Shown: piece by piece, positions 49,403 to 55,856 of the stretch
How positions within the stretch are numbered: the stretch's first letter is position 1
Layout: each line of letters begins with the position of its first letter
Assembly (NCBI GenBank): GCA_945863605.1
Contig: CAMAZP010000009.1
Location: forward strand, 1-64,000
Length of the DNA: 64,000 bases
Reading direction: 5' to 3'
DNA from: Chitinophaga pinensis
GTDB taxonomy: Bacteria; Bacteroidota; Bacteroidia; Flavobacteriales_D; Crocinitomicaceae
Program-made: the position numbers and the translations under genes
The notes under the pieces: generated by a model
Databases searched by the model: none
What the model was told of the DNA's origin: nothing
What the model saw: only the letters and a program-made list of their open reading frames with translations

Positions 49403-51181
49403 ATGAAACTAACCCTTCTTTTCGCCATCAGCTTCTTGACTTTTCAGTTAAGCGCTCAAACTATCGCTTACCAATTGCGCATGCCGAAACCACAAAACCA
49501 CTATTTCGAAGTGGAAATGACACTTTCAGATTTTAAAGAAAAAGAACTAAACTTGAAATTGCCCGTTTGGGCACCAGGTTCGTATTTGGTTCGTGAGTTT
49601 TCAAAAAACTTAAACCTTGTGAAAGCTTTCGACGAAAATGGAAAAGAAATCCAGGTGGTGAAAAAAACGAAAAACACGTGGACAGTAAATTCTAATGGAG
49701 AGAAAAAAATAAAAGTGAAGTATGAAGTTTATTCTTTTGAATTATCTGTTCGAACTTCGTTTTTGGATTTAACACACGGATTTGTAAGTGGCTCAGGTGT
49801 TTTTATGTATGTGGATGGTTACAAAGACAAAAGCGGACTGTTAGAAATCGTGAAGCACCCAACTTTTAGCACCATTACAACCGCACTTCCAAAGGCTAAA
49901 ATGTCAATCGCAAAAGATGGTTCTGAAAGTTTTGAGTTTTCAAATTATGACCAATTGGTAGATTGTCCGATTGAAATTGGAAACCAAGTAGTATTTGATT
50001 TTACTGCTGCTGGAGTTAAACACACAGTAGCAATGTATGGCGAAGGAAACTATGACGTTCCAACTTTGAAAAAAGATATGGCAAAAGTGGTTCAAGCTGC
50101 AACAGACGTTTTTGGGGTAAATCCAAATAAGGAGTATGTTTTTATTATTCACAATGTGGTCGATGGTCAAGGCGGTTTAGAACACACCAATTCCTCAACC
50201 TTAAGTGTTAATCGCTGGACGTATCAAGATGCGGAATACACTGGTTTTCTATCACTTGTGGCACACGAATATTTCCATTTATGGAATGTGAAACGCGTTC
50301 GTCCGATTGAATTAGGACCTTTCGATTACGACCAAGAAAATTACACAAGCCTACTTTGGGTGATGGAAGGATTCACTTCTTACTACGAAAAATTGATTCT
50401 TGTGAGAGCAGGATTTATGAGCAAAGAAGATTTCTTAAACAAATTACAAGGTTCAATCAATTACGTTGAAGGTTCGGTTGGTACACGTGTTCAGCCAGTT
50501 GCGCATGCTAGTTTTGACGCTTGGATTAAAGCTTATCGCCCAACAGAAAACAGTGCCAATACTTCAATGACTTATTACTCACGAGGTTCTGTAATCGCTT
50601 CTATTATCGACATTTTAATCATTGATAATTCCAAAGGAAAACAATGTTTGGATCATTTCTTTCAACATTTGTATAAAAAGTATTTTATCGAAATGAATCG
50701 TGGTTTTTCTGAAATTGAGTTCAAAACGGAATTAGAGAAATTTGTTGGCAAAAACCTAGATGAATTCTACAAAAAGTACATTGACGGAACAGATATTTTG
50801 CCTTATGCGGAAGTTTTTGATAAAGTTGGAATTTCAGTAGTTGACAATACGAGCTTTAAGCCTTCTTTCGGTGCAACAGTGCGTGAAGAAGGAGGAAAAG
50901 TAATGGTAAAAAACGTGCGTTCAGGTTCTAGCGCAGAAGAAGCAGGAATCAGCGTTGGAGATGAAATTGTGGGTTGTAATTCCTACCGAGTAGATCAGGC
51001 GATGCTAGAAGCAATGATGAGTGGATTAGGAACTGCCGAAACAGCTGACTTGTTAATTGCGCGCGAAGAAAAACTATTGGCTGTAAAAGTTCGAATGACC
51101 AATTTCAGAAAACCAAACTTTCAACTCGTAAAACAATCCAACGAAAAACCTACTGCCAATTTTATGTATTGGTTGAGGTAG
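49403..51181 (+). CDS. M61-family metallopeptidase with PDZ domain
   Basis: 592 aa. Signal peptide to about 19 (LSAQ). M61 glycyl-aminopeptidase-like: N-terminal beta domain, zinc motif VAHEYFHLWNVKRVRP (HExxH) and the third ligand in WVMEGFTSYYE. C-terminal PDZ domain (about 480-560, RSGSSAEEAGISVGDEIVG). Releases N-terminal glycine or alanine in characterised relatives; secreted or periplasmic here. Confidence 0.92.
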   Translation: MKLTLLFAISFLTFQLSAQTIAYQLRMPKPQNHYFEVEMTLSDFKEKELNLKLPVWAPGSYLVREFSKNLNLVKAFDENGKEIQVVKKTKNTWTVNSNGEKKIKVKYEVYSFELSVRTSFLDLTHGFVSGSGVFMYVDGYKDKSGLLEIVKHPTFSTITTALPKAKMSIAKDGSESFEFSNYDQLVDCPIEIGNQVVFDFTAAGVKHTVAMYGEGNYDVPTLKKDMAKVVQAATDVFGVNPNKEYVFIIHNVVDGQGGLEHTNSSTLSVNRWTYQDAEYTGFLSLVAHEYFHLWNVKRVRPIELGPFDYDQENYTSLLWVMEGFTSYYEKLILVRAGFMSKEDFLNKLQGSINYVEGSVGTRVQPVAHASFDAWIKAYRPTENSANTSMTYYSRGSVIASIIDILIIDNSKGKQCLDHFFQHLYKKYFIEMNRGFSEIEFKTELEKFVGKNLDEFYKKYIDGTDILPYAEVFDKVGISVVDNTSFKPSFGATVREEGGKVMVKNVRSGSSAEEAGISVGDEIVGCNSYRVDQAMLEAMMSGLGTAETADLLIAREEKLLAVKVRMTNFRKPNFQLVKQSNEKPTANFMYWLR

Positions 51182-51448
51182 ATTTTATTGAAATTTGGGC
51201 GTTCTCCAGACGAAAATGTTTTAGAAAGAAAAACATTTTGTCTGGGTCGGGCTTTCCGCTATATCTCCGACTTACTCGCTCTCACAATTACTTTTCTTCT
51301 TATTCAATGCTCTCTCCGCCGCGACAGACTCCGCTCTAATTCTCCGCTCTCATTTTGCTTAGTCGGAGGATGCCGCTGCTATCCCTAACGCGAGCGAGTG
51401 GCTTGGGTTTTGAATCTTGGTTAAATGCTTTAGACTTGTATATTTAAA
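51182..51448. repeat. Structured non-coding element between M61 and T9SS genes
   Basis: Starts TTTGGGCGTT (51194-51203). A strong hairpin follows: CCAGAC-G-AAAATGTTTT (51206-51222) pairs with AAAACATTTTGTCTGG (51230-51245), 16 bp with one bulged G and a 7-nt loop. Then GGGTCGGGCTTTCCGCTATATC (51244-51265); an 8-bp long-range pair CTCCGACT (51265-51272) with AGTCGGAG (51361-51368); and GGATGCCGCTGCTATCCC...AACGC (to 51391), where GCGTT (51199-51203) can close with AACGC (51387-51391). Higher GC than its surroundings. I recall similar GGGCGTT...ATCCCTAACGC boxes between genes of other flavobacteria, unverified. Confidence 0.7.
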
Positions 51449-51708: not shown

Positions 51709-52485
51709 ATGAGAATCATTACAATCACATCTATAGTGCTGCTAACCATCAGCCAGCTTAGAGCACAATCCTTTTTAGGACAAAGTGTTCCTGATGTAAC
51801 AGAGACAGACTGTAATAATAATACCGAACGAATTTACGATGTTTTGGCTACCGGAAAACCAATTTTGATTTTCAAAACAGATATGATTTGCAGTAATACA
51901 ATTGGTTTTGGGACAACGGTTAGACAGTATGCTGACTTATATCAAGCACAATACAGAACTTGGGTTTGTGCAGATTTTATGGATGCTTCCAATTATTCGG
52001 AGCAATGTACTTTCATGCAACAATATCAACAGCAAACGGGTTTAAACGCAAACTCCGCATTTTGTTTTATCGATACAACGTCAGTAGGTGCATACGATCC
52101 AGCAACGCGTTCTTCAATACCAAAATGTTTTCAAGGATATGTCGTGATTGGCTTGGATTCGACCATTATATATGTTGGAGGCGATGTTAATACTGCGGTT
52201 AGTGCTGCGTTGAATGCCTCCCAAACGACAGGTGTTCAACAAAACGATGGGAACGATTATTCAATTAACCTATTCCCCAATCCTGTAACTTCCATACTTC
52301 AAATAGAAACAGATTTAGAAATTCAAAACATCCATATATATAACCAAGTCGGCCAATTGGTACTTCAATCTCAATTGAAGGATACAAAAACTATAGATTT
52401 AACTGCATTAAATAAAGGGGTTTATTTCATTAATGTAGAAAACAAAGATGGCTTATTCTCAAGCAGAAAGTTTTTAAAGCTGTAA
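51709..52485 (+). CDS. Secreted thioredoxin-fold-like protein with T9SS sorting domain
   Basis: 258 aa. Signal peptide to about 20 (LRAQS). Residues 22-170 look like a TlpA/thioredoxin-type fold (GQSVPDVTETD, GKPILIFKTDMICSNTIGFG), but in place of CxxC there is a single Cys61 (CSNT). Five further cysteines follow or precede it. C-terminus is a T9SS domain (LFPNPVTSILQIET, NKGVYFINV). Fold assignment is by pattern only. First gene of a three-gene module. Confidence 0.7.
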   Translation: MRIITITSIVLLTISQLRAQSFLGQSVPDVTETDCNNNTERIYDVLATGKPILIFKTDMICSNTIGFGTTVRQYADLYQAQYRTWVCADFMDASNYSEQCTFMQQYQQQTGLNANSAFCFIDTTSVGAYDPATRSSIPKCFQGYVVIGLDSTIIYVGGDVNTAVSAALNASQTTGVQQNDGNDYSINLFPNPVTSILQIETDLEIQNIHIYNQVGQLVLQSQLKDTKTIDLTALNKGVYFINVENKDGLFSSRKFLKL

Positions 52486-55200: not shown

Positions 55201-55446
55201 ATGACTAGCAAATTAACACTGACTGTTGAAAAATCGGTTATTGAAAAAGCAAAATCTTATGCGAAGAAAACAGGGAGAAGTTTGTCTGAACTAATTGAGA
55301 AGTACTTAGATACCATCACTAGTGAAGAAAATGATGATAAAGAGCTTTCTCCAAAGATGAAAAAAATAGTTGGAGCAGTTACTCTGCCCAATGATTTTGA
55401 TGAAGAAAAAGAACTTAGTTCTTATTTCGAAAAAAAGCACTTATGA
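55201..55446 (+). CDS. Antitoxin of DUF6364/RHH type
   Basis: 81 aa. KLTLTVEKSVIEKAKSYAKKTGRSLSELIEKYL is a ribbon-helix-helix DNA-binding domain; the acidic C-terminal half should bind the toxin. Overlaps the PIN gene by 4 nt. It is expected to repress its own promoter. Confidence 0.87.
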   Translation: MTSKLTLTVEKSVIEKAKSYAKKTGRSLSELIEKYLDTITSEENDDKELSPKMKKIVGAVTLPNDFDEEKELSSYFEKKHL

Positions 55447-55856
55447 AAAAAGTTTTTGTTGACACTAATATATTAGTAGATTTAATTGCTGACAGAAAAC
55501 CGTTTAGCAAGTTTGCAATAGAACTTTTTTCAAAAGCAGAGTCAGGAAATGTAAGTCTATATACTTCTTCACATTCGATTGCAACAACTCATTACTTGTT
55601 GAAAAAGTACTTAAGTGAGAAAGAATTACGAGAAGTTTTATTGAATCTTCTTGATTTCATTAACATCATTGCTATAGACATTGATGTTCTTAAAAAAGGA
55701 CTCAAATCCAAACATAAAGATTTTGAGGATGCCTTGCAAATAATAAGTGCCTATTCAATTGAAAAAATTGATTGCATTGTAACTCGTAATTTAAAAGACT
55801 TTAAAGATTCGGAAATTCCTGTCTTGAGTCCAGATGAAATCATTGAACAATTATAA
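55443..55856 (+). CDS. PIN-domain ribonuclease toxin (VapC-like)
   Basis: 137 aa. PIN fold with acidic metal ligands: Asp7 (VFVDTNILVD), a glutamate in ELFSKAE, Asp in KDFEDALQ, and IVTRNLKDF near the end. Expected to cut RNA (tRNA or rRNA in characterised VapC). ATGA overlap with the antitoxin confirms the pair. Confidence 0.88.
   Translation: MKKVFVDTNILVDLIADRKPFSKFAIELFSKAESGNVSLYTSSHSIATTHYLLKKYLSEKELREVLLNLLDFINIIAIDIDVLKKGLKSKHKDFEDALQIISAYSIEKIDCIVTRNLKDFKDSEIPVLSPDEIIEQL

Follow-up and report, generated by a model that had tools for sequence, protein, structure and literature searches.

We identified a discrete 195-nt element in the 64,000-nt window (the whole stretch of DNA analysed here), beginning 15 nt past the stop codon of a gene for an M61 glycyl aminopeptidase and lying upstream of a gene for a secreted protein (Table 1). 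It comprises three stems: P1, which is short and closes the unit; P2, a 16-bp hairpin; and P3, which is long and mismatched, with positions 51249-51274 pairing with 51360-51385. The original prediction, made from the letters alone, had placed here three sequence boxes, a 16-bp hairpin and two long-range pairings in a stretch of raised GC content, and each of these was found: all three boxes are present, the hairpin forms with one bulge, the long-range pairings correspond to P1 and P3, and the GC content reaches 47%, compared with 33% across the window, with only 0.4% of 198-nt stretches as rich in GC. Single-sequence folding energy is modest and lends weak support to the structure, with z-scores relative to shuffled sequences of -2.4 for single-stranded DNA, -0.9 for the minus-strand RNA and -1.5 for the plus-strand RNA; we therefore dropped it as proof of structure, and the case for the element rests on its relatives.

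Table 1. Features of the element and its neighbouring genes (positions in the window).
Feature	Position	Strand	Basis or remark
Upstream gene, M61 glycyl aminopeptidase with PDZ domain	49403-51181	+	Pfam
5' flank, TTT	51194-51196	+	Fits the TTW context preceding other copies; outside the element proper
Complete element, GGGCGTT...CCCTAACGC, 195 nt	51197-51391	+	Independent model R1; borders as in the other elements collected
P1 5' arm, GCGTT	51199-51203	+	Pairs with 51387-51391
P2 hairpin 5' arm, CCAGACGAAAATGTTTT	51206-51222	+	Fold prediction
P2 hairpin 3' arm, AAAACATTTTGTCTGG	51230-51245	+	Pairs with 51206-51222, one bulge
Rfam RF01705 (Flavo-1) match	51241-51400	-	32.6 bits (gathering 42), E = 7.9e-5, long apical-loop insertion
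Box 2, GGTCGGGCTTTCCGCTATATC, lower P3 5' side	51245-51265	+	Rfam alignment
Upper P3 5' arm, TCCGACTTA	51266-51274	+	Pairs with 51360-51367
P3 loop insert, about 85 nt	51275-51359	+	Loops of the decayed C5 and C13 copies of this genome are similar
Upper P3 3' arm, TAGTCGGA	51360-51367	+	Sequence
Box 3, GGATGCCGCTGCTATCCC, lower P3 3' side	51368-51385	+	Box 3 pattern search
P1 3' arm, AACGC	51387-51391	+	Pairs with 51199-51203
Downstream gene, secreted protein with Por_Secre_tail (T9SS) domain	51709-52485	+	Pfam

A link to the Flavo-1 motif had been suggested, and an Infernal search against Rfam bears it out. While a scan of the window at the gathering threshold gave no match, relaxed settings returned RF01705 as the best Rfam match for the element, below the gathering cut-off, with the model covered over its full length (1-76) and its sense strand corresponding to the minus strand here. 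The Flavo-1 alignment places the conserved P3 stem and the AGCGG boxes on one strand of the window copy. Moreover, Flavo-1 was detected at gathering level in 12 of 13 related loci scanned (the exception being L043), namely in the orthologue L253, which lies beside the same M61 gene in the sister species G396 and scores 46.8 bits, and in 11 of the 12 further elements. The lineage of the window element thus scores above the Flavo-1 cut-off, whereas the window copy alone does not.

The Rfam family, first described by Weinberg et al. 2010 (PMC2864571), shares with the elements studied here the P3 stem pairs and their mismatch pattern, the AGCGG boxes and the phylum; it differs in covering P3 alone (76 nt) and in being named an sRNA. 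Scanning genome contigs by pattern and aligning the resulting stretches (at least 120) by their boxes, we defined a larger unit of 74 to 252 nt, consisting of GGGCGTT, a variable P2 of about 2 to 16 bp, GGTCGGGCTWTCCGCTNNATC, a variable upper P3 and GGATNCCGCTNCWATCCCTAACGC, with box 2 nearly invariant at most positions in the elements collected. This extended unit adds P1, a variable P2 and defined ends to Flavo-1, and the window copy additionally carries a long P3 insertion. Among the stretches listed, most come from Flavobacteriaceae and some from Bacteroidales, Cytophagales and Pedobacter. A covariance model (R1) built from 20 other elements, with the window excluded, returned exactly 51197-51391 in cmsearch (E = 4.6e-11), and the copy recovered has the layout GGGCGTT-P2-box2-P3-box3-TAACGC together with the P1 pairing. 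The window element is a slightly unusual member of a known, unexplained family, Flavo-1. In the openly accessible literature searched, we found no description of the extended unit and none that terms Flavo-1 a repeat.

Each of the three stems shows compensatory changes among relatives. P1 is largely invariant, and its variants are fully compensated (GCGTG/CACGC, GCGTC/GACGC, GTGTT/AACAC, GCGCG/CGCGC and GGCTC/GAGCC); in P2, the CCAGAC/GTCTGG of the window copy is matched by CTCAGAC/GTCTGAG and CTCTGAC/GTCAGAG in congeners. A W-W pair between boxes 2 and 3, within P3, forms in 97% of 149 elements, compared with 48% when partners are shuffled (AT 70, TA 65, GC 7), and it is at this strongly covarying pair that the window copy has a T.T mismatch (51254-51380). 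In the upper part of P3, pairing reaches 84% between an element's own two arms and 67% between swapped arms (160 elements). Nearly every copy has the same mismatches in lower P3, and between these mismatches lie pairs that covary. Furthermore, elements from a single genomic site, downstream of trpB (n = 16), gave a covariation score of 0.250 against 0.109 +/- 0.012 for shuffled rows, a value reached in 0/500 shuffles, in an alignment that leans towards the structure because its rows were trimmed to structural blocks; the score falls once partners are slid. The original prediction had staked its folded unit of about 200 nt on further copies in related genomes and on compensatory changes in the stems, and both were found, along with the exact recovery of the unit by a model that excluded it.

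The copies are numerous and unevenly distributed. Allowing at most one mismatch, the box 3 pattern gave 1336 matches in 301 Flavobacteriaceae genomes, compared with 1 for the reversed control; it occurs in 166 of these genomes, is missing from 45%, and ranges from 0 to 389 copies per genome, with the maximum in an Aquimarina (G060). The genome of the window itself holds four recognisable relatives, which are the window copy, one on C14 that is classical (79 bits) and two more on C13 and C5; intact boxes, box 3 among them, are seen only in the first of these. Loop contents differ between most copies; the loops of C5 and C13 are alike to the long loop of the window copy, with a loop-only blastn E of 2e-4 to C5 and a weaker match to C13. 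At the end of C5 (L004), a strong palindromic repeat, TAACG...GTTGCCTTGTGTTGCCCCGCACATGCGGGG...CACGCTGTTAGTGGC, possibly attC-like, adjoins the decayed copy shortly before the contig end. In 2.9 million viral contigs the pattern was found 8 times, just 7 of them with recognisable elements, and blastn against phage and plasmid collections found no element; this scarcity sets the family apart from most transposons, in collections where Bacteroidota are probably under-sampled.

The ends of the element are sharp, with TTW before and R (A or G) after. Over 150 elements, T occupies position -3 in 87% and position -2 in 80%, and T or A occupies position -1 in 97%; no target-site duplication of 3-8 nt was found in 149 elements. 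Thirty pairs of elements differ by at most 3 bases despite unrelated flanks, including one identical 88-mer. A mutual-information analysis of base-pairing between target and element, as by a guide, gave no strong signal, and among loci with unpaired boxes, mostly diverged or degenerate copies, none carried a gene within P3 as an autonomous copy would. Suggestive runs on one contig hinted at a replication-strand bias, as lagging-strand insertion would leave, but the listed positions, as judged against the GC-skew switch, show no consistent bias, and we dropped this explanation.

Same-site comparisons give a view of how individual copies behave. At the trpB 3' junction in Flavobacterium, the element or a remnant is present in 25 of 30 species and absent in 5, these species being those that match one filled query most closely, so that the fraction is not a genus-wide estimate; three of the five empty junctions retain the next gene seen in filled species. 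The distance from the trpB stop codon takes several values, which can reflect repeated insertion or local indels, and whole P3 arms are sometimes swapped at this site (for example CTTTTTT/AAAAAAG for CCCGATT/AATCGGG). That compensated stems persist after trpB suggests a use for some copies, or at the least their retention; being kept with compensatory change at a single site also points to selection acting copy by copy, for which a repeat that is purely selfish would have no need. At the M61 locus, among the genus relatives examined, the element occurs only in the window's genome and in G396, and no clean empty site could be read, because in most of these relatives a different gene directly follows M61 and the neighbourhood is rearranged.

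The gene past the trpB element varies between species (L382-L411; transporter-, gamma-glutamylcyclotransferase-, carbon-nitrogen hydrolase- or trpA-like, from translations judged by eye), so that the element may sit at a junction prone to rearrangement. After trpB in L383, L385 and L386, a second small palindrome (CCCGATARCTATCGGGA-like) is nested inside box 2.

Our best reading is of a repeat that was once, or still is, mobile and that is sometimes retained after the 3' end of a gene across species, as after trpB. Specifically, we assign the element to an extended Flavo-1 family of palindromic DNA repeats dispersed between genes, in which a single strand would fold into a Y whose predicted parts are the closing stem P1, the variable hairpin P2 and the mismatched stem P3, and whose copies spread and were in some cases kept; we give this a probability of roughly 0.6. 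Spread is supported by presence and absence at the same junction, by near-identical copies at unrelated sites and by the occurrence of both orientations. A dispersed repeat had been among the possibilities raised at the outset, and copy number, ends and intergenic placement in both orientations make it the better description of how the element behaves. Mechanistically, a folded single strand (or cruciform) may be inserted by a trans-acting enzyme, which would read the conserved unpaired bases of lower P3 together with the stem geometry; copies landing near the 3' end of a gene may either be tolerated or serve a purpose as a hairpin where the mRNA ends, and could persist through speciation. A wider proposal, which we advance tentatively and at less than even odds, is that Flavo-1 forms the core of phylum-wide mobile Y-folding DNA repeats and is not primarily an sRNA, with insertion between TTW and R without target duplication, an enzyme other than the known REP transposases, and stabilisation of some copies after gene 3' ends. 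The Flavo-1 structure is hereby extended from one stem to three and given defined ends, and the DNA-repeat reading argued here changes the annotation of Flavo-1 matches in Bacteroidota and poses the question of which enzyme copies Flavo-1.

Gene context bears on the alternatives that assign the element a role in transcripts. Almost all elements are intergenic (158/164, 96%), and by crude ORF calls, which also underlie the distances and gap frequencies that follow, they are placed symmetrically with respect to genes, 44 being codirectional, 38 opposite, 30 convergent and 24 divergent. Median distances are 55 nt to gene 3' ends and 129 nt to 5' ends (164 elements), so that the elements lie closer to the former, and 22% fall in convergent gaps, compared with 14% for the background. 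Together with the compensated copies after trpB, these figures favour a 3'-end element maintained by the host after a single spread and now under selection, as a stabiliser of mRNA, a bidirectional terminator or an insulator, yet the absence of such copies from the same junction in some relatives and the range of 0 to 389 copies per genome speak against it, and we regard it as unlikely though deserving of serious weight. In its canonical intrinsic form a terminator is excluded, since no T run follows the hairpin on either strand, both strands ending ...AACGC(CC) before A-rich DNA. The original prediction had also considered a conserved RNA, and in Rfam Flavo-1 is classed in this way, as a structured RNA (an sRNA or cis-regulatory) that would here be read from the minus strand. 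The conserved, covarying secondary structure fits this view, as do P3 mismatches that on the minus strand are mainly G.A/A.G and well tolerated in RNA, and a review names Flavo-1 as an abundant sRNA family, without a function (PMC9029176). Against it, the two strands have similar numbers of potential G.U wobbles (84 and 71), favouring folding at the DNA level over a strand-specific sRNA, orientation to genes shows no preference, RNA-seq in F. psychrophilum found Flavo-1 matches indifferently sense, antisense and outside transcripts (PMC9723704), and both the copy-number range and the 45% of genomes lacking the pattern are at odds with it. The RNA interpretation is thus unsupported, and we consider it improbable.

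The remaining alternatives concern the origin of the covariation and the identity of the mobiliser. Quasi-palindrome correction by template switching during replication could produce part of the stem covariation as a mutational by-product rather than as evidence of function, as the wholesale replacement of P3 arms at the trpB site might indicate; such correction would erase the lower-P3 mismatches that nearly all copies keep, and, leaving these unexplained, it seems to us a quite improbable account. As for the mobiliser, the element resembles REP and REPIN sequences, which are moved by RAYT (Y1) transposases, in being short, palindromic, intergenic and multicopy, with no target-site duplication and a short T-rich 5' context, and in Bacteroidetes the RAYT genes of subclass 2.6 carry copies of 'atypical secondary structures' (PMC6006769). 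There is also a weak motif likeness (CCGATAGCGCGG vs GATAGCAGCGG), and the presence of either gene type is weakly associated with that of the element (p ~0.01, ignoring phylogeny and genome size). In contrast to REPINs, the element has no GT[AG]G foot (its ends are GGGCGTT and AACGC), it has three stems instead of one hairpin, and its copy number is unassociated with RAYT genes in the 301 genomes: PF01797 does not track it, and a subclass-2.6-like RAYT profile gave a Mann-Whitney p of 0.11, with an odds ratio of 1.2 (p 0.82) for genomes with at least 10 copies. Neither query finds a match in genomes carrying 65, 46 and 37 copies, the window's own genome has none to PF01797, and at eight RAYT loci inspected the flanking palindromes differ from the element. 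Mobilisation by a RAYT, possibly of subclass 2.6, is thus unsupported by co-occurrence and by flanking repeats, and we judge it very unlikely. The palindromes flanking these flavobacterial RAYT genes (L172, L173, L174, L178-L180, L184, L188) are the genes' own, and some, such as CCCGATAGCGCGGATTTGCAATCCG and GCTGGCGCTAGT...ACTAGTGGCGG, are weakly like a Flavo-1 arm.

Other known systems resemble the element in part. Like ERIC, for which no dedicated enzyme is known, RU-type repeats and MITEs, it is an intergenic dispersed repeat of about 100-200 nt found in either orientation; its sequence is unrelated to theirs, and it differs in its conserved mismatch pattern and three-way junction. DDE-type MITEs further differ in their target-site duplications, of which none of 3-8 nt was found in 149 elements despite a short terminal pairing. 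The element also resembles integron attC sites, in which a single strand adopts a stem whose mismatches are conserved and whose tip varies. Its terminal boxes, however, point inward (GTT...AAC), the opposite of the attC arrangement (RYYYAAC...GTTRRRY), and the elements are scattered singly, whereas attC sites occur in cassette arrays.

In a Bacteroidales MAG (G065), many of the copies matched by box 3 end in CCCTCACGC or CCCTAATGC and not in CCCTAACGC, which suggests P1 subfamilies; the matching box 1 partners come only from viral contigs that share these ends. Elsewhere in the window, positions 55201-55856 encode a DUF6364 protein and an overlapping PIN-domain protein, which by their Pfam matches look like a toxin-antitoxin pair.
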